DNA of 30,159 nucleotides from a virus: IMG/VR virus record IMGVR_UViG_3300025280_000115, positions 1 to 30,159 of that record. One strand, 5' to 3'. Shown piece by piece: positions 6,783-22,828 of the stretch (position 1 is its first letter; every line of letters begins with the position of its first letter). A program made the position numbers and the translations under genes. Below the pieces are notes generated by a model. That model ran no database searches and was not told the DNA's origin. It saw only the letters and a program-made list of their open reading frames with translations.

Positions 6783-7382
6783 ATGGGTACAGCGTTAGCT
6801 ATAGCAGGACTAATAGGAGCAGGAGTAACTGCAGGCACATCTATTTACGAGGATGATCAGCAAGAGGAAGCACAAGAAGCCGCCGAACAAATGCAAGAGC
6901 AACAGCTTCGAATTAACGAAGATAGTGCAAGAGCTAAAGCCGCTCAACAGCAAATTGTGAGAGACAACCAGATACAGTCAGTCATGGCTCAACAGAAAGT
7001 CATAGCTGCGGCCCATGGCATGGCATTGAGCAGTGGCTCATTTCGCGCATTAGAAGAAGCTTCATACAACAATTTCGCTCGGGATACTCAGGTAGCAAAT
7101 ATGAATCTTCAGATCACAGAAGACGATCTCAATTCCAGAATGGATGCTGCTAGATCAGATCTCTCTTCTGAAAAATCGGCTGATTGGGCGCATGGAATTG
7201 AAAGTGCCGGTAGTTCTCTTTTTAATATGGGATCTTTAGCGGGGAAATACGGAAGTAAATCTCCGTCGGATGATGAAGCAGGCAATTACTCTTGGCAAGA
7301 CGAAGACGACCACAAATTGGATGATCCGAAGATTTCTTATTCTGACTGGGCATCTAATTATCAATCGAAGTTTTGGGAGTAA
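6783..7382 (+). CDS. Internal virion protein, gp14-like
   Basis: The product has 199 residues, very close to T7 gp14 (196). The N-terminus is a glycine/alanine-rich hydrophobic segment (ALAIAGLIGAGVTAGTSIY), followed by a long Gln/Glu/Ala coiled coil (about 25-130). The motif AAHGMALSSGSFRALEEASY is typical of small internal virion proteins. These are ejected first and may form a pore in the outer membrane. The C-terminal third is acidic and polar. AGGAGAG precedes the start. Confidence 0.75.
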   Translation: MGTALAIAGLIGAGVTAGTSIYEDDQQEEAQEAAEQMQEQQLRINEDSARAKAAQQQIVRDNQIQSVMAQQKVIAAAHGMALSSGSFRALEEASYNNFARDTQVANMNLQITEDDLNSRMDAARSDLSSEKSADWAHGIESAGSSLFNMGSLAGKYGSKSPSDDEAGNYSWQDEDDHKLDDPKISYSDWASNYQSKFWE

Positions 7383-7387
7383 TACTA

Positions 7388-9895
7388 ATGAGCAGAAGTT
7401 TTCCAAAATATAATCAGAGCGTACCAATTGAGGAAGTTCAACCCGATATGTCGGGAGCGCAGTCTAAACTCTATGAAGGCAAATTAGACCAGACCTTTGC
7501 TAATACTTTAGATACGCTTTCAAATAATATAACAGACAAGATAGCTACCGTGAAAGGGCGGCAAGATGCGGAGAAACAAGGCGAGAACTGGAAGCCTGCA
7601 ACCGATCTGACACAAGCTGGCCGTGATTATAATCTTTCCGGCCAAACTGTTGCCCGAAATTTTACGACCAATGATATGGGTATGGCTTATACCAAAATGT
7701 ATATGGGAGTAATAAATAAGCCCATAAATACCTCAAAAAATGGTTCTATTGCAGACCTACAAGGACAAATGGATAGCTATACCAAGCAATTAATGATTGG
7801 TAAATCTCCTGAAGTTCAGTCTTGGATTCAGCAAAATTATCAACATGCCCAAGCCATTTACATGCCACGGATTGCAGAAAAGGTAGCGTTACAACAACGT
7901 GCAACTTCTTCTGCAGCAGCGTTAGTAAATGCTGATTCTGCCGATAGTTTAGTTGAAAATGCTGCTTATGCTTATGCAAATTCTCCAGTTGGGTCAACTA
8001 AGGGCACCTCCGCTGAACAACAAGCTGCACAAAAAAACTCCGCTCTTGGAGAAGCATTTGCTCATGCGCAAGTACAATCACGAATAGCAAATAAGCAATT
8101 ATTAGCCCAGGGAGATATTAGACCAGAAGTATATGCAAACCGTATTGCTAACTCTAAATATAGAACAGCTCTCGCTCTACAAAAAGGAAAACTAGATTAT
8201 TATATTTCTAATTATAATCTTTTTGCTTCTAAATCGACGCCACAAGAAAATGCAGCCTATATTAAAAATATAGAGAACTACGGTGAAAACTACAGGAACT
8301 CTGGTTTAGATAATAATATAGAGGGCAAACAAAGAATAGCCAATTACTTAGATGGTCAAGTTAAATCGTTTATGACGATTCAAAGGTCTCAAAATGCTTC
8401 CGTCTTATCTGATGCTTCACAAGGTGTGGTTTTGGGTTATACCGGCAACCAAACCAAGATAAATTCGATATGGTCTAAATTAGCTCCTTTTGGAACTACA
8501 GAACAGAAAGTTAAGTATAAAGAAAGCGTATATGCTGGACAAGTTAGCAGAAGCTTGATGAATTCTGCCCCAACGATGCAGTCTTTAAATATCTTGCGCC
8601 AAAACTTGCTCACCAATCCTTCTTATGGTCAGAATCCTGAGCGAACCATTCCACAAGCGACTCTAGATAAAGCGCATCAATTTACCTTAGCTAAAATTTC
8701 AGAGCTTCAGCAAGCTGCTCATCATGATCCTGCTGCATTTATTATTAAAGGCAAAAATGCAATAGATTACATTCAGTCTATCCAAGATCATATTCCCGGA
8801 TCGACTGTTTCTCAAAGAGAGCAACACCAGGCTGTATTTAATGGAATTGTCAATAACTCAGCAGTATTAATGGATAATACACCATTCTCACCTGAGGTTT
8901 TAGCTGCAATTCAAAAGAAAGGAGACTTTCTAGTACAGCAAGAAAAAGCTAATGGCTTGTATCCAAAGATGACGACTAATGCTGATTTAGCAAATATGGT
9001 TCACATTATGAATACTTCCGATCTACACGTGGCTAAACAGCTGTACTCAAACATTATGAGAAATGATGCCCCTCATGCTTATATCTGGGAAGCTAATTTA
9101 ATTCAAGCTAAGTTATCGCCTAAAGTTTTCTGGTTTTCTATGCCAAGTGATAAAGCTTTAATCGATCATGCTGACTATTTCAATGATCCTAAAAACATGA
9201 AAACCGCTATGGAAATAACTGGAGTAAAGTCACTTAAATCGATGACAAACATGTTTATCTCTAATTCAAGTTTAATGGACAAACTTGCGAACTTAAGGAC
9301 TTCCTACTCTAACGTCTTTACCCCTCAAGCAACTTCAAATACATTAATGAACAGCCTAGAAACTCAAATAGCAAAAGAAGTTATGTACAGAAGCATGCAG
9401 GGAGGGGTTTCTTTTAAGTCTGGCTTGCAAACTTACGGTACTAAAGTTGTCCAAGATTTTCTATCATCAAAATACCAGAACCTAAGTCTACGAGTTCCTG
9501 TATCCATTACAACTAAATCCTATCCTCACGGCATAAAACTCAGTATGCCTAATATTACTTCTCTTATGGATTACACCAAATCAATGGCTTTGAAAAACCT
9601 CAATACAGATTATTACACCAAACATATAGAAAATAAAAATGAGAAAACTATTCATTTATCAATGACTAAAATTGCCATACAAAGTGGTAGGTTTGTACCA
9701 TCCCCTGATGGAAGAGGCCTTATACTAGTTGACTCTGTAGGTCATCCAGTAATGATGAAAAATGGGCAAATGGCAGGTTTTAGCTGGGAAGATTCGGTTG
9801 ATCCAACAAAGGTTCATCTAGCTCAATCTTCCAATAGTTCTCTGCCCTCTATTAGAAATGATTTTATTACAGATTTGATTGCAGGATTCATTTAA
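7388..9895 (+). CDS. Internal virion protein, gp15-like
   Basis: The product has 835 residues. The start at 7388 (ATG with GGGAG eight bases away) is preferred over an in-frame TTG at 7373. It is largely helical with many Gln, Asn and Lys residues and no membrane segment or catalytic motif that I can see. Its position after the gp14-like gene and before two further large proteins matches T7 gp15, a core protein ejected into the cell to form part of the DNA-translocating channel. The stop overlaps the next start (TAATG), so the two are coupled. Family assignment rests mainly on gene order and size. Confidence 0.6.
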   Translation: MSRSFPKYNQSVPIEEVQPDMSGAQSKLYEGKLDQTFANTLDTLSNNITDKIATVKGRQDAEKQGENWKPATDLTQAGRDYNLSGQTVARNFTTNDMGMAYTKMYMGVINKPINTSKNGSIADLQGQMDSYTKQLMIGKSPEVQSWIQQNYQHAQAIYMPRIAEKVALQQRATSSAAALVNADSADSLVENAAYAYANSPVGSTKGTSAEQQAAQKNSALGEAFAHAQVQSRIANKQLLAQGDIRPEVYANRIANSKYRTALALQKGKLDYYISNYNLFASKSTPQENAAYIKNIENYGENYRNSGLDNNIEGKQRIANYLDGQVKSFMTIQRSQNASVLSDASQGVVLGYTGNQTKINSIWSKLAPFGTTEQKVKYKESVYAGQVSRSLMNSAPTMQSLNILRQNLLTNPSYGQNPERTIPQATLDKAHQFTLAKISELQQAAHHDPAAFIIKGKNAIDYIQSIQDHIPGSTVSQREQHQAVFNGIVNNSAVLMDNTPFSPEVLAAIQKKGDFLVQQEKANGLYPKMTTNADLANMVHIMNTSDLHVAKQLYSNIMRNDAPHAYIWEANLIQAKLSPKVFWFSMPSDKALIDHADYFNDPKNMKTAMEITGVKSLKSMTNMFISNSSLMDKLANLRTSYSNVFTPQATSNTLMNSLETQIAKEVMYRSMQGGVSFKSGLQTYGTKVVQDFLSSKYQNLSLRVPVSITTKSYPHGIKLSMPNITSLMDYTKSMALKNLNTDYYTKHIENKNEKTIHLSMTKIAIQSGRFVPSPDGRGLILVDSVGHPVMMKNGQMAGFSWEDSVDPTKVHLAQSSNSSLPSIRNDFITDLIAGFI

Positions 9896-11622
9896 TGAAA
9901 GAGCCAATTATTTCCTCACCAGAAAACGAAGATCAATCAGATTGGCTGCCTACTATTGATGTGGACAATACAAACTACAATTCTTTACCTGCGAGCACAT
10001 TAATAACACAATCTCCGTCAGCAACTCAAGCCGCAATGTCCAAGATTAATCCTTCTCAGGACATTCCTAATCGCTGGTTTTCTTTGAAGGCCTCAATCTA
10101 TGCAGGAGTAATGTCTCCTTGGAATATCACGCATGATGCGTGGGCCGGCATGAAATACTTAGATGAGAGGTATATAGATAAAGATCCTGACGCAGCTTCT
10201 CAGTACCTTAAAAGCTGGGGTGATGCACAGAAACAAGCTCAATATGCTATAGCTTCTTTGCCAGATGACAGCTTTACTAACAAGTACCTCATTAAGGATG
10301 GTGGATCCTTGCTTGGTGGAATGCTCGACCCAATTACTTTAGGCATAGGAGCGAAAGTTCATGCAGGCGTAGAAGGATTAGAAGGCTTAGCAGCACTAAG
10401 TGAAGCTGGTAGGGCAAGTCAAATAGCTATGCGTGCAGCAAAAGGTGCTATCTCCGGAGCAGGCACAGCTTTATTAGCTGGCACAACTGCAGCTGCATTC
10501 AATCCTATCCTTCCCAACCATATTACAGTGGGACAAATTGGCAGACAAATGGGTGGCTGGGCTCTTTGGGGAGGAGCATTAGGTGGTATAGGCGGCGTAT
10601 TATCATCAGATGATGTAAAAGGTATAAATGGCGAAGGTAATGCGCAAGCTAAAGCTGATTCACGTGTAAACCCTGTGGCTACTGTCGACGCGGCATTAGA
10701 CGAAAATAACTCTAAATATGAAGAGCAAAACGGTGAAGAGAGAGACAATGAGACTATTTCTAAGCTTATCCAGAAAAGAGGAGATGTTCTGATAAATATG
10801 TCATCCTTAGCTGATCAAATATCTGACGATCCTGGCGTCCAGGAAGATATTCAAAACTTGGCTCTAACACCTCTTGTACAGCTAAATCACGAGAAAGGTA
10901 CCCTAGGCATCATCAAAGAGGGGTCGCCAGAGGTTTATAAAAAATTATCGTTTCTTCCTGATATGATTAAAACAGCCTTGTATGATTCCAATGCAGCCAA
11001 AAGAGTATCAGAAATAGCCGATTTACCTCCTGCAGAAGTCACTCCCGAAGACGAAGAATTTGTATCAAAGATGGGTACACATAAAGGGGAGCTTCAAGAA
11101 ATAGAAAATAGTCCAAGAGGAAATTCAGTAAATTCTGTTCATCTTAACGCCAGAAAAGAGCATCTAAGAGATTTGATAGCTAACCCTCCAGACAACAAGT
11201 TTCAATCAGATTATTTGCCCCAGCTTAATAAAGCTGCTTTACAACTATCGAAAATTAACGATTCCATTGCCTTATTAAACAATAAGAAGGAAATCTTTAA
11301 CACTTCTCGCGAAGCAGGTCGACCTACTTTTGTAAGTAATGCCACAGCCACTCTGGAGGGAGAAAATTCAGCAACTGGCCATCCCGACTCAGGTAAAATC
11401 ATCGATCAGAAATTAAACGAAGATGATCCCGGGAATGTAAAACCAGCTGAAGAAGAGTTTGAATCTGCCATGGAAAAGAGAATAAAAGATCTCCAAGAGA
11501 GCGGTAAGCTCACCCCTGAGGATGTCGAACTATTAGAGAGCGTTAAAGCTCTAAAAGCTGGTGATAAAAATGAGACTAAATTATTGAATGCAGCTATTAA
11601 ATGTATTGTAGGGGATGAATAA
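9895..11622 (+). CDS. Internal virion/ejection protein with hydrophobic core
   Basis: The product has 575 residues. The N-terminal ~70 residues are polar. Residues about 135-235 contain several glycine-rich hydrophobic stretches (SLLGGMLDPITLGIGAKVHA, AISGAGTALLAGTTAAAF, ALWGGALGGIGGVLSS), as in ejection proteins that insert into membranes. The C-terminal half is acidic and helical. I see no lytic transglycosylase motif, unlike T7 gp16. It is joined to both neighbours by TAATG overlaps. The function is inferred from context and composition. Confidence 0.55.
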   Translation: MKEPIISSPENEDQSDWLPTIDVDNTNYNSLPASTLITQSPSATQAAMSKINPSQDIPNRWFSLKASIYAGVMSPWNITHDAWAGMKYLDERYIDKDPDAASQYLKSWGDAQKQAQYAIASLPDDSFTNKYLIKDGGSLLGGMLDPITLGIGAKVHAGVEGLEGLAALSEAGRASQIAMRAAKGAISGAGTALLAGTTAAAFNPILPNHITVGQIGRQMGGWALWGGALGGIGGVLSSDDVKGINGEGNAQAKADSRVNPVATVDAALDENNSKYEEQNGEERDNETISKLIQKRGDVLINMSSLADQISDDPGVQEDIQNLALTPLVQLNHEKGTLGIIKEGSPEVYKKLSFLPDMIKTALYDSNAAKRVSEIADLPPAEVTPEDEEFVSKMGTHKGELQEIENSPRGNSVNSVHLNARKEHLRDLIANPPDNKFQSDYLPQLNKAALQLSKINDSIALLNNKKEIFNTSREAGRPTFVSNATATLEGENSATGHPDSGKIIDQKLNEDDPGNVKPAEEEFESAMEKRIKDLQESGKLTPEDVELLESVKALKAGDKNETKLLNAAIKCIVGDE

Positions 11623-14201: not shown

Positions 14202-15536
14202 ATGCCTACTACTCCCGCAACGCAAACCGTTTATTCATTCGTCTCAACCGGTGCAGCTACTTATACACTTATCCCTCAATGGATTTTTCAGCAAGCTGAT
14301 ATTCGTGTCTACATTAATGGAACACTTCTGGATGATACAACTTACTCCGTTGACGCTATAACTTCAGGAGATACTGCGAGTTATTCCATTACGTTTACAA
14401 CGCCGCCTATCGTTGGAGCTACTATAGCTATAGTGAGAGACATAGAAATCTCAGAGCCAGATAATTTTGCACCCGGTGCGCCTTTAACTGCAGCCGATCT
14501 CAACAACAAATTCGACGTGAATTTTATCTTGGATAATGATCTTCAATATTATAGCGATAATATCACTCCAAAGTATAATATCCCGTCTTTGGTTGAGGGT
14601 GACCTAACCTCAAAAGATCTTGTCTTGCCTCAGCTTTCAACTCCAGGAGCTGGCGAAACTCCTAGAGTTTGGGCTAAAGATGAAACCGGAGATATAATAG
14701 ACGCTCCACTAGATCCAGGCGGAAAAACTGCAGCTGAACTCGAAACCGAACTGGCAGAGAATGCCGATGCTACGGGATCCGGCGCTACTATGATAGGCTA
14801 CTTCGATACGCAAACTACGACGCCTTCAAATGTGCAAACTGTTCTTGATACTAAAGCCAAGTATACTGGACCCACAGGGAAAATCGTGAGTGGCAATGGA
14901 CTAACTTCTGATGATTCATCAGCAGCTGCGACATGGGTGTACACTCTTCCGGCGAGTGGAGGATATGATAGAAATATAGTTCTAGGGAAAGAAAACCTTA
15001 ATTTCGCTACGTATATCCAAAGTAAGGCAGTGGAGGTGCGGACAGATATTCCAGGTGGCGCATTTTCTTGGGCTGAAGGCTCACCGAGCCCAACCGTTCC
15101 GGCTACAAGTTTCTCAGATACGACGCTGGCGACTAGAGGTTGGGTAGCTGAGAATACTATCGCTGTTGTAGATACGGGGGGTACCAAGAGAATATCTAGG
15201 GGCTGTGTGCATAGAGTTTATGAACACACCGAAGGAGGTGGAGGAGCTGGTGGAGTCATCTCTGTTACTAATACAGCAACAGTGAACACGTGGACTGATG
15301 GGATTATCCCCAATACTGCGGATCCAGCAAAAGTTAAAGCCGTTGTTATAACCAATTGGTATATTACTGTCCCTCCTGTTGGTGCTATGCCTTTGGCCAC
15401 TTGTGAGGCCGCAATGATGCAAACTACTCCTGGGGGAGTTCTTACGTATACGCTGACCGTAGAAGCAGTAACTCTTGCTGATCCTTATCCAGCAAATCAG
15501 ATCGATATGCTAATAATTTTCGATTATTTCGAATGA
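14202..15536 (+). CDS. Tail fibre/receptor-binding protein
   Basis: The product has 444 residues. The first ~150 residues resemble the T7 gp17 N-terminal adaptor that anchors fibres to the tail: QTVYSFVSTGAATYTLIPQW, then ADIRVYINGTLLDDTTYSVD and IVRDIEIS, with LTAADLNNKFD at the end. Residues about 150-300 are Thr/Gly/Ser-rich and repetitive. The C-terminal domain contains GGGGAGG near residue 347 and ends in beta-rich sequence, probably the receptor-binding tip. It should set host range. AGGAG lies upstream. No chaperone gene is evident next to it. Confidence 0.75.
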   Translation: MPTTPATQTVYSFVSTGAATYTLIPQWIFQQADIRVYINGTLLDDTTYSVDAITSGDTASYSITFTTPPIVGATIAIVRDIEISEPDNFAPGAPLTAADLNNKFDVNFILDNDLQYYSDNITPKYNIPSLVEGDLTSKDLVLPQLSTPGAGETPRVWAKDETGDIIDAPLDPGGKTAAELETELAENADATGSGATMIGYFDTQTTTPSNVQTVLDTKAKYTGPTGKIVSGNGLTSDDSSAAATWVYTLPASGGYDRNIVLGKENLNFATYIQSKAVEVRTDIPGGAFSWAEGSPSPTVPATSFSDTTLATRGWVAENTIAVVDTGGTKRISRGCVHRVYEHTEGGGGAGGVISVTNTATVNTWTDGIIPNTADPAKVKAVVITNWYITVPPVGAMPLATCEAAMMQTTPGGVLTYTLTVEAVTLADPYPANQIDMLIIFDYFE

Positions 15537-18404: not shown

Positions 18405-18737
18405 TTAACTCTCCGCATCATTTTTTGGAAAGAAAATATCTTTAATTTGATCTAGATTCTCTAACAATGCAGTTGCCGAATTGATCTTAGGAATGTCTGC
18501 CCGCTTCTTTCGATATGAGACAAATGTATCTTGCATTGCTGAGCTTTCCATGCGTAAGGACCAGTCTATTTCTTTTAAAAGCTCAATTAAAATCTCATAG
18601 TCCTTATCTTTGAATGTTCGTTTACGCAACAGGCGTTGGGCTTTATTTACGTCATTTAATAACTGTATTAGTTTATTTACGGTGGAATTTATTTTTGCTC
18701 CTAGAAATCTAGAATCAAATTCTTTATCTTCTATCAT
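18405..18737 (-). CDS. Hypothetical helical protein
   Basis: The product has 110 residues when started at ATG 18737, which has GAGAG upstream; a longer in-frame start at 18815 would run through the csrA terminator and is rejected. It is almost wholly helical with Leu/Lys/Asp repeats (VNKLIQLLNDVNKAQRLLRK) and no catalytic motif. It lies just after a strong terminator, so it may have its own promoter or depend on read-through. Confidence 0.5.
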   Translation of the reverse strand: MIEDKEFDSRFLGAKINSTVNKLIQLLNDVNKAQRLLRKRTFKDKDYEILIELLKEIDWSLRMESSAMQDTFVSYRKKRADIPKINSATALLENLDQIKDIFFPKNDAES

Positions 18738-18750
18738 TTTTATATCTCTC

Positions 18751-18780
18751 AAAAAAAAAGAGCCGCAATTAAGCAGCTCT
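18751..18780 (-). terminator. Rho-independent terminator after csrA
   Basis: On the - strand, AGAGC-GC and GC-GCTCT (18759-18780) form a stem around TTAATT, with one mismatch, followed immediately by eight or nine T residues. It begins 13 bases after the csrA stop. Confidence 0.85.
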
Positions 18781-18792
18781 AGGGGGTTTTTG

Positions 18793-18966
18793 CTATTTAG
18801 AAAGCAGAGGAGCATCGAGCTCTTCTCTCATTATCTTAACATCTTTCTCAGCACGGATGCCAAGCTTATTGTTGGGCAAAGATGTAACACTAATCTTTTG
18901 TTTCCCTACATAGATGTTAACAGTTTGTCCTTTTTCTCTAGATAGAATAAGATTACCTGCGCTCAT
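18793..18966 (-). CDS. csrA: CsrA/RsmA-like translational regulator
   Basis: The product has 57 residues: MSAGNLILSREKGQTVNIYV, then GKQKISVTSLPNNKLGIRAE and KDVKIMREELDAPLLSK. It aligns with E. coli CsrA over its length: NLILSREKGQTV with LILTRRVGETL, KLGIRAEKDV with VRIGVNAPKEV, and IMREEL with VHREEI. The Arg equivalent to R44 of CsrA, needed for RNA binding, is present as R47. The loop after the first strand is shortened by about five residues. CsrA dimers bind GGA motifs in 5' leaders and repress or stabilise mRNAs. AAGGAG precedes the ATG. It closes the recombination operon, 26 bases after the SSB-like gene and just before a strong terminator. Its targets, phage or host, are unknown. 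Confidence 0.87.
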   Translation of the reverse strand: MSAGNLILSREKGQTVNIYVGKQKISVTSLPNNKLGIRAEKDVKIMREELDAPLLSK

Positions 18967-18992
18967 GTTTTTTCTCCTTGTTTTTTTAAAAT

Positions 18993-19436
18993 TTAGAAGG
19001 GCACTTCTTCATCAGGAAATGGTTCTTCCTCACTTATGCAGTCAGTTTGAGGATTGTCTTTATCTTCGCGTTCAGCTTTTACCCAGCTTCCACGAACATA
19101 TCCCTTGTCGTCGAGTGATAATAACGCTTTGCCAGTTCGCTCCTTGAGTTTTTCGAAGTCGCAAATCCAAGCATCATTTTCAAAAACGATTTTCATCTCC
19201 TCATCCAAGCTGTCCACAAATTCATCGATGAATCGTGCCGCTCCCTCTGTTCCTACGAGCCAATTGTACAAAAGTGGTTTGCACTTTAAGCCCGTAGAAT
19301 CTGTGCAAGACAGACCCACAGTAATCATTGGGTTACCTGCTTTGCTCATTCCGTCTTTGAGAAAGGCCACGCGAAAATCCACTTCGCTGCCCTTCTCTGC
19401 CAAATCTTTTAAGTCAATATCATTAAATTCAGTCAT
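18993..19436 (-). CDS. SSB-like single-stranded DNA-binding protein
   Basis: The product has 147 residues from ATG 19436; the longer frame upstream overlaps recT and is rejected. The central part is beta-rich with alternating hydrophobic and charged residues, compatible with an OB fold. The C-terminus is acidic and ends PFPDEEVPF, matching the acidic DDDIPF-type tip by which SSBs recruit repair and replication proteins. With recT and exo directly upstream this forms a recombination module. The start overlaps the recT stop by eight bases. No clear match to classic SSB was seen, so the assignment rests on tail, size and context. Confidence 0.6.
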   Translation of the reverse strand: MTEFNDIDLKDLAEKGSEVDFRVAFLKDGMSKAGNPMITVGLSCTDSTGLKCKPLLYNWLVGTEGAARFIDEFVDSLDEEMKIVFENDAWICDFEKLKERTGKALLSLDDKGYVRGSWVKAEREDKDNPQTDCISEEEPFPDEEVPF

Positions 19437-20319
19437 TTTTAATATCCTTTTGTAGTTCTGAAGAAATTTCCTTATAAATTGTGCGAATTTTTTCTCGCTC
19501 TTTATCATCCAACGCTTTAATGTCGGGTAAAAAACTTTCTAATTCTTCCATTGATTCGCATAGAGAAATACAGGTCTTTAATTTCTCCAATGGAGATTTT
19601 TCATCTAACACCTCAGATTCTCCTTCAATAACGTTCGAAGCGGCATGAAAGTCAATCCCCTCGCCTGCCTCATCGTTTAAGTATTGTATCATATTATCCA
19701 CTTTCGGCGATCGACCTTTGCAAAAGTTAAGTGCTCTCTTCAACACTGTTTTAATCGCCATCCGATCATAAAAATCGACCCATGGTGATTTGCCACTCTT
19801 TCCGGAAGCACTTAGATTACGTATTTTATTCACTTCGTCGACATTCATCGTCTCAGTATAATAATCTTTGTCATTAAGCTTTAAACAAGCATACACACCA
19901 ATCATTTTGCCTCGATCACTCGAAAATGGATCATAGCTATGGGTTGGTTCTTCGGATATTCCATTCAGCTGAAATTCATCTGACTCATACACAATTCCAC
20001 ACTTAGCCATTCGACATGCACCGTCCTCAATGGCCGCTTTTAGCATTCCCTTGTAGCTAATGTCCAAGCAAATTGCACCACCGCGAGGTATTAAATATGC
20101 AAGCTGAGAGGCAGGATTTAACGAGAGTCCCATACCAGCAATATTCTTGACCGCAGCTATTGCCTGATTCGGATTCTTCAAAGCTACATCAGCTAAGAAT
20201 TTGTTTTTGTTGAAAGCCTGCATGGCAAATTCAGCTTCACGTCTAAAGGTTTCATCATCTAAAAAAGCACTCTTGGCTGGATCGATGATTGTTGATTGTA
20301 TTGTTGATAGTTGGTTCAT
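19429..20319 (-). CDS. recT: RecT-family single-strand annealing protein
   Basis: The product has 296 residues. The core is typical of RecT: NPNQAIAAVKNIAGMGLSLN, then QLAYLIPRGGAICLDISYKG and later SGKSGKSPWVDFYDRMAIKT with VLKRALNFC. It anneals complementary single strands and works with the exonuclease encoded directly upstream for recombination-dependent replication. The C-terminal ~80 residues are acidic, helical and variable. CAGGAGA precedes the ATG. The end overlaps the SSB-like start. Confidence 0.93.
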   Translation of the reverse strand: MNQLSTIQSTIIDPAKSAFLDDETFRREAEFAMQAFNKNKFLADVALKNPNQAIAAVKNIAGMGLSLNPASQLAYLIPRGGAICLDISYKGMLKAAIEDGACRMAKCGIVYESDEFQLNGISEEPTHSYDPFSSDRGKMIGVYACLKLNDKDYYTETMNVDEVNKIRNLSASGKSGKSPWVDFYDRMAIKTVLKRALNFCKGRSPKVDNMIQYLNDEAGEGIDFHAASNVIEGESEVLDEKSPLEKLKTCISLCESMEELESFLPDIKALDDKEREKIRTIYKEISSELQKDIKND

Positions 20320-20334: not shown

Positions 20335-21201
20335 TTAACCATACGCACGGAATGTTCGATGGCCATTCTTATTAGCATTGAAGGTAGCTAATTTACGAGC
20401 TTTTCCCTCTTGGTTTGTGATTTTCAGCCCCAAATTAGGGCCAATCCTCGTTGTTAAAGCGTCCATAGCTTCTTTCTTTTTGCTTTGAAGCTGTTTTATT
20501 TCTTCATTTATCTGCTTCAGGTCATTCACGCATAATTCATCATCAACATTAGCTTCTTTCATCTTATCCGTCTTTGGTAAGGGAAATAAAAGTTTAACTT
20601 CTTCCTGAGTCATAGGCCTCGGAGGAATTCTTTTGACGACATGATCCCTCCAAAAAGTGATTAAATCGGCTCTCATGCGGGCGATGAACCCAGGGTCACG
20701 TTTAAACTTGTATAGTCTCACAGGATTAAACCCACCGAGAAATGCAAACATATGTCCTTCATTTAGACCTGTGACCATTAAATAATGCATAAGCTGATAG
20801 TAATATGATATTGGTATTGATGCTTGTGGATCATATCCATCCTCTACCGGCTCACCCCATTCATCAAAATGAGGCGAAGATAAGACTTTAATTTCCACTA
20901 CATGAGAATTTTCAACAATTCCATCTACATGAGCCAGTAAGAAATCATGCTTAGGATGAATTAAAAGGCCTGGGTTATAGCTGAGTTGCTGTCCTGTGAC
21001 CTCTTCATACAAATTAAGCATGCCTCCTTCGAGGGCACGTCCAATCTGCATCCGAATATTATCTGGTGTTTCCTCCGCTTCGCCTATCTTCTCGAGATAA
21101 ACATCTACCGGATTTCTCCATTTATTAACGCGGCAAATAGCTCCACTATCGCTACCGCCTATTCCTCGACGTCTTTCAGCCAAAAACTCTTCTCTACTCA
21201 T
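20335..21201 (-). CDS. exo: YqaJ/lambda-exo-type viral recombinase exonuclease
   Basis: The product has 288 residues. The N-terminus RRRGIGGSDSGAI (11-22) is the family signature. E58 lies in MQIGRALEGG, and the PD-(D/E)XK core is D93 (AHVDGIV) with E103-I-K105. A Gln-bearing helix follows (ISYYYQLMHYLMVTG). It degrades one strand of duplex ends to load RecT. A coiled coil fills about residues 215-245. GGAG lies seven bases before the ATG. The recT gene follows after 15 bases. Confidence 0.92.
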   Translation of the reverse strand: MSREEFLAERRRGIGGSDSGAICRVNKWRNPVDVYLEKIGEAEETPDNIRMQIGRALEGGMLNLYEEVTGQQLSYNPGLLIHPKHDFLLAHVDGIVENSHVVEIKVLSSPHFDEWGEPVEDGYDPQASIPISYYYQLMHYLMVTGLNEGHMFAFLGGFNPVRLYKFKRDPGFIARMRADLITFWRDHVVKRIPPRPMTQEEVKLLFPLPKTDKMKEANVDDELCVNDLKQINEEIKQLQSKKKEAMDALTTRIGPNLGLKITNQEGKARKLATFNANKNGHRTFRAYG

Positions 21202-21230: not shown

Positions 21231-21413
21231 CTACAATTTAAAGCTTCTTTTCCTCTGTTTTGGCGAAATAGCATCACGCATCCAATGCGTATAAACTTTT
21301 CTTACGTGAGGATTAAATGTAGTTTTATCCATAATTGGTGAGTGAAATTTCTTGAGATCGTCTGAATTCCGAGATATAGTGGTCTGGTATCTAAATGTTG
21401 CGCATGTGCTCAT
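21231..21413 (-). CDS. Small basic hypothetical protein
   Basis: The product has 60 residues and is rich in Lys, Arg, Thr and Ser, with a basic end (SPKQRKRSFKL). No family is recognised. A strong TAGGAGG site precedes ATG 21413. It lies between a terminator-like hairpin and exo; a nucleic-acid role is possible. Confidence 0.5.
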   Translation of the reverse strand: MSTCATFRYQTTISRNSDDLKKFHSPIMDKTTFNPHVRKVYTHWMRDAISPKQRKRSFKL

Positions 21414-21470
21414 GATATGTGCCTCCTAAGGGTATGTTTTTAACTAAACAACAATCGTTAAAAATTTTGC

Positions 21471-21504
21471 GGGCATCGACCTAAATCAGCGATGCCCTTT
21501 TTTT
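21471..21504. terminator. Strong hairpin with T-tract
   Basis: GGGCATCG (21471-21478) and CGATGCCC (21490-21497) form a perfect stem. Seven T residues follow on the + strand; on the - strand GCAAAATTTTT follows. It probably acts in both directions, separating the 45-residue gene from the 60-residue gene and exo. Confidence 0.7.
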
Positions 21505-21505
21505 A

Positions 21506-21643
21506 TTATATCTTAAAAATCTCGTGAGCGCGTTCAGATTCTATCTCTGAAAGCTCCCTTTGGAGATCTGAAATTAAAAGCTGTGTACGCCTTTCTATTT
21601 CCTGTAAAGACTTGATATCTTTTGTGCGGCGAATCTGCCCCAT
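21506..21643 (-). CDS. Small coiled-coil protein
   Basis: A 45-residue frame from ATG 21643 to TAA 21506. Most of it is a Glu/Arg/Leu helix (LQEIERRTQLLISDLQREL) with heptad-like spacing. The upstream AGG is weak. It fills the space between the 118-residue gene, whose end it approaches within 8 bases, and the hairpin at 21471. Confidence 0.45.
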   Translation of the reverse strand: MGQIRRTKDIKSLQEIERRTQLLISDLQRELSEIESERAHEIFKI

Positions 21644-22798: not shown

Positions 22799-22828
22799 AG
22801 TATACTACCCCATGAGACAGGATGTCAA
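22799..22828 (-). promoter_or_regulatory. Strong early leftward promoter
   Basis: On the - strand TTGACA (22823-22828) and TATACT (22799-22804) are separated by 18 bases. It drives the - strand operon starting at 22756. A dyad, GAC-AGGAT-GTC (22816-22826), overlaps the -35 box. Confidence 0.8.
22815..22826. promoter_or_regulatory. Candidate repressor operator, left
   Basis: AGACAGGA (22815-22822) followed by TGTC forms a short dyad over the -35 box. The same 8-mer occurs at 23486-23493 between the divergent control genes. Confidence 0.4.

Follow-up and report, generated by a model that had tools for sequence, protein, structure and literature searches.

The window, the whole 30,159-nucleotide stretch of DNA that was analysed (IMG/VR record IMGVR_UViG_3300025280_000115), derives from an uncultured tailed, podovirus-like phage of 30 kb that encodes a portal protein, a major capsid protein, tail tubular proteins A and B, an internal virion protein and a terminase, along with a DnaD-like loader and a ParA-like protein. 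Within the block of virion genes, three large proteins (840, 575 and 444 aa; 7373-11622 and 14202-15536, plus strand) lacked a PHROG match at E ≤ 0.01 as well as any match to a curated Pfam family. The ParA-like partition ATPase is encoded at 1505-2164 on the minus strand, and the Pseudomonas phage phi297 likewise carries both ParA and csrA. No integrase was found among the phage proteins searched (a subset of the ORFs), and its absence from this set, combined with the presence of a ParA-like ATPase, hints at a plasmid-like prophage state.

A run of minus-strand genes encodes a YqaJ/RecE-like exonuclease (20335..21201; PF09588, 2.4e-24; phrog_434), a RecT-family single-strand annealing protein (19429..20319; PF03837, 1.7e-29; phrog_148), an acidic protein of 147 aa (18993..19436) whose C-terminal PFPDEEVPF resembles the tip of SSB and, in last position, a csrA-like gene. 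The 147-aa protein matched no Pfam, NCBIfam or PHROG family and, judging from its tail, is perhaps an unrecognised phage SSB. The best sigma-70-like sequence upstream of this leftward run (TTGACA-18-TATACT, 11/12; 22799..22828, minus strand) is a candidate early promoter, in a phage where the total number of such matches was not above that of shuffled sequences. Ahead of the exonuclease lies a 60-aa gene, and the gap upstream of this small gene contains a strong hairpin (GGGCAUCG...CGAUGCCC; 21410-21520, minus strand) with no close U-run, which could be a terminator, an attenuator or an RNA-processing site.

The csrA-like gene itself (MSAGNLILSREKGQTVNIYVGKQKISVTSLPNNKLGIRAEKDVKIMREELDAPLLSK) was identified from matches to the Pfam CsrA family, a profile of phage CsrAs and solved structures, and runs for 57 codons on the minus strand from an ATG at 18966 to 18793. 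It is preceded by the Shine-Dalgarno sequence ACAAGGAGA (ACAAGGAGAAAAAACATG; upstream stretch ACAAGGAGAAAAAAC) at 18973..18981, which also matches the CsrA-binding core ACARGGA, such that autoregulation through this site is possible. Immediately 3' of the gene lies an intrinsic terminator (18759..18780, minus strand) comprising an 8-bp stem, a 6-nt loop and a U8 tail, with a fold of -15.6 kcal/mol (z -2.9), which was also found by a terminator scan. An earlier note on this DNA had described a 57-codon gene that closes a recombination operon and carries its own terminator; the analysis bore out the exact coordinates, the terminator and the final position behind RecE/YqaJ, RecT and a third gene of the same orientation, and added the strand, which the note had left unstated. 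Three further small genes follow on the same strand beyond the terminator. One mechanically called ORF in this region (18405-18815, minus strand) starts within csrA and runs across its terminator, and the real start is likely the ATG at 18737, right after the terminator, giving a product of 110 aa.

The homology to CsrA claimed in the earlier note was upheld by profile searches. The 57-aa protein scored 30.2 bits against Pfam CsrA PF02599 (gathering cut-off 27; E = 4.5e-7) and matched phrog_9500 'CsrA-like regulator'. When a profile was built from 69 other distinct phage CsrAs, the protein scored 24.8 bits on it, compared with 8.5 bits for the best of 1000 shuffled versions. On the strength of these matches, the sequence identifies a real csrA-like gene and not a chance ORF. 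The protein fell short of the equivalog cut-offs for CsrA, with 24.7 bits for NCBIfam NF002469 (73 needed) and 20.9 bits for TIGR00202 (70.1 needed), and no csrA-related match to a defence profile was found. By sequence it is thus a member of the CsrA/RsmA family, but not an orthologue-grade CsrA: it scores above the profile cut-off, retains the equivalents of Arg44 and of L2, L4 and R6 in β1, and has the predicted monomer fold of the family.

Residues were compared in alignments with 51 phage CsrAs and an E. coli CsrA reference sequence, itself 100% identical to a record that its database annotates as carbon storage regulator. CsrA residues L2, L4, R6, A36, V40 and R44 are kept as L6, L8, R10, A39, V43 and R47, and the conserved RNA-binding arginine reported in the earlier note is therefore present. 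In RsmE and RsmN, the A(N)GGA loop is touched by β1, by β5 with its adjacent loop and by the equivalent of Arg44 (PMC4005645, PMC3791407), while Gln29 and Arg31 of RsmE touch bases of the RNA stem (PMC4005645). The stem-contacting Gln29 is absent from the 57-aa protein. CsrA Arg7, which is Arg in 67/69 phage CsrAs, is replaced by Glu, and Pro37, which is Pro in 64/69 and Glu in two, is also replaced by Glu. The 'shortened first loop' of the earlier note did not hold up, as the β1-β2 segment is of normal length and it is instead the β3-β4 hairpin that is shorter, by approximately four residues, while the β2-β3 loop is approximately three longer. A HMMER pairwise alignment placed these changes at +1/-2, in the same direction as +3/-4. 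The protein also has a 4-residue N-terminal extension and a short C-terminal tail, and the spacing from R6 to R44 is 37, compared with at least 38 in all 69 other phage CsrAs. From this pattern we infer that recognition of the GGA loop is kept and that of the RNA stem is weakened. As the elements that touch the RNA stem in RsmE, Gln29 and a portion of the β3-β4 hairpin, are missing and the GGA-loop contacts are retained, the protein is probably less dependent on an RNA stem than host CsrA.

Structure prediction, proposed in the earlier note as a check, was carried out for the monomer and gave solved RsmA/CsrA chains as the best match both with and without an alignment. The AlphaFold2 model built from a 52-sequence alignment (pLDDT 74) has three strands and a C-terminal helix, and its top seven VIA-align matches were RsmA/CsrA-family chains (Z 4.2-5.7 over 49-53 residues), followed by an unrelated chain at Z 2.8. 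The alignment-free model (pLDDT 74) has the same β2-β3-β4 meander, with RsmA/CsrA/RsmE chains at ranks 1-4 (Z 4.1-3.3) and unrelated chains close behind at 3.1. In absolute terms all of these Z values are low, as expected of so short a chain, and the fold matches are supportive only; Foldseek returned no match at E ≤ 0.001 for the models, a search in which 57 residues give little statistical power. The α-helix that RsmN/RsmF carries between β2 and β3 is absent, with a tight turn at this position in both models. The protein shares with canonical members such as P. aeruginosa RsmA (1vpz) and RsmE-hcnA (2jpp) the PF02599 profile, the β2-β3-β4 meander and the GGA-loop residues, but differs from them in its N-terminal extension, altered loops, Glu7 and Glu37, missing Gln29 and short C-terminal tail. 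The rearranged RsmN/RsmF of P. aeruginosa has likewise diverged from canonical CsrA around β2-β3, although there a whole helix was inserted, compared with only about three residues in the phage protein.

The earlier note had treated the phage setting as new, but csrA genes are already documented in phages (PMC7366521, PMC8450108, PMC9144972, PMC11879866). For example, csrA alleles were reported from 30/2517 phage genomes in 2020 (PMC7366521), and csrA/RsmA genes in GenBank and IMG/VR phages were proposed in 2021 to have an anti-CRISPR role (PMC8450108, Campa et al. 2021). In our searches, E. coli CsrA matched 85 records of the phage collection, a few of which are apparently bacterial or mislabelled, and CsrA of the Vibrio phage VvAW1 matched 81 viral stretches. 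Against this background the 57-aa protein was the most divergent copy compared, with 28 bits on the family profile versus 62-93 for the other viral CsrAs. Its single match in the GenBank phage collection was weak (a 595-kb metagenomic phage, E = 0.1), and its best plasmid match was 47% over 45 residues (E = 0.01). Searches of viral contigs with the CsrA, exonuclease and tail tube B proteins recovered no contigs other than ones with 99.9% identity to the window; csrA is intact in 3/3 records that cover it, which at this identity represent one phage population. What is known, then, is that phage CsrA genes are fairly common, and what is new is one highly divergent copy that lacks the stem contacts.

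Small csrA genes are likewise carried by the tailed phages VvAW1, phi297 (RsmM type), PTXU04 (gp28) and the Burkholderia podovirus JC1, although their CsrAs closely resemble those of hosts, unlike the 57-aa protein, and reach 60-90 bits on the family profile where this was measured. In VvAW1 the gene immediately before csrA encodes an exonuclease, and phi297 has csrA upstream of a PD-(D/E)XK nuclease and RecT within a single run. A RecT match was found in 8/47 other csrA-bearing viral records (above the cut-off in six). In each of these eight records (35-69 kb) csrA was located 1.2 to 5.6 kb from recT, in six of them on the same strand. Placement near a recombination module is thus recurrent, but it is not universal, since csrA of JC1 sits among structural genes, between virion genes, and not in a recombination operon; one CsrA peptide was seen in JC1 virions (PMC9144972). 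CsrA paralogues whose targets may lie in the host or in the element itself are also found on other mobile elements, such as RsmQ of the Pseudomonas plasmid pQBR103, which reprograms host behaviour (PMC9928087), and Legionella CsrT. Unlike the phage gene, these are carried by conjugative elements.

No close relative emerged when about 85,000 genomes were scanned with CsrA and the terminase as queries, the phage has no tRNAs, and the isolates nearest by portal protein, which share just 26-31% identity, infect Methylophilales, Pelagibacter and Vibrio; for these reasons no host is claimed. The probable explanation of the locus is a strongly diverged phage CsrA/RsmA that is made from the recombination operon and acts as a dimer to change translation through A(N)GGA. 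Expressed together with the exonuclease, RecT and the SSB-like protein, the 57-aa protein would, by analogy with the family, form a strand-swapped β-sheet dimer. This dimer would bind A(N)GGA where it overlaps ribosome-binding sites, altering the translation of selected host mRNAs, phage mRNAs or both, presumably early in infection. The gene, its family, its predicted fold, its place in the operon, its terminator and the conserved loop-recognition residues are the observed parts of this explanation, which draws on the Pfam and PHROG matches, the shuffles, the models ranking RsmA/CsrA/RsmE first, and the kept residues, as well as on the proximity of csrA to recT in 8/8 viral records and the knock-down of the PTXU04 phage CsrA, which led to smaller plaques in 2025 (PMC11879866). 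Counting against it are the lowest family score of any copy compared, Glu7 and Glu37, the lack of Gln29, the short C-terminal tail, a pLDDT of only 74, a model of the monomer alone, and a single known phage population.

A narrower version of this explanation is that the phage protein mimics host CsrA/RsmA and represses host mRNAs, such as those of cas operons or metabolism, to aid infection, in line with the anti-CRISPR-like proposal of Campa et al. 2021. We regard it as possible but put it well below an even chance: RsmA does repress cas mRNAs in Serratia, and the presence of RsmA/CsrA in phage and host correlates (PMC8450108), but the 57-aa protein shows a far weaker resemblance to host CsrA than the other phage copies do, which argues against simple imitation. 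Alternatively, the protein may be directed at the phage, binding phage leaders including its own and delaying or shutting off early or late genes, a timing role that was the second idea of the earlier note and that we consider doubtful. The motif ACARGGAKR occurs at six sites in the phage versus 1.57 expected, four of which serve as Shine-Dalgarno sequences, for csrA itself and for partition and small unknown genes. In addition, CAAGGA precedes the start of 14/52 phage csrA genes compared with 28/303 Shine-Dalgarno-bearing neighbours (a comparison with all neighbours was dropped because many control ORFs have no Shine-Dalgarno). However, the full motif is absent from all late structural genes that were identified, the A(N)GGA sites of the phage are indistinguishable from ordinary Shine-Dalgarno sequences, and csrA leaders from phages, being related to one another, are not independent. 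Enrichment of ACARGGA in leaders was rejected as proof of self-regulation because of the overlap between this motif and the Shine-Dalgarno consensus; autoregulation is only hinted at. No RNA family reached the gathering score in Rfam, and no CsrB/RsmZ-like sponge RNA was seen.

It is unlikely that the gene encodes a decaying or repurposed CsrA that has lost A(N)GGA binding and persists, for example, as a remnant or as a partner with a dominant-negative effect on host CsrA. The very low family score, the unusual glutamates and the missing Gln29 would fit such a fate, but the ORF is intact in every covering record (albeit near-identical ones), has a good Shine-Dalgarno and its own terminator, and retains R44, R6 and the hydrophobic positions of β1 and β5, and Glu37 recurs in two other distinct phage CsrAs. 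A chance ORF or an unrelated small β protein, to which the short length and middling structure scores might point, is extremely improbable given an E value beyond the Pfam cut-off, 0/1000 shuffles near the observed score, the Shine-Dalgarno, terminator and operon position, and a top rank for CsrA even with the alignment-free model. A more far-reaching reading, for which we see only a slim chance, is that the phage has reshaped its CsrA to recognise A(N)GGA while hardly requiring the usual RNA stem, and thereby to reach targets of its own; in its extreme form, the protein would join the recombination proteins on single-stranded nucleic acid. This form is suggested by the company of an exonuclease, an annealing protein and an SSB-like protein together with the binding of CsrA to GGA in DNA hairpins, as reported in work cited in PMC4005645.

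Phage CsrAs are fairly common but hardly tested, and the one knock-down shows that an effect on plaque size is possible. A natural CsrA with the GGA-loop contacts but without the stem contacts would separate the loop-reading half of CsrA-RNA recognition from the stem-reading half; such a copy would help to decide whether phage CsrAs copy the targets of the host or have targets of their own.
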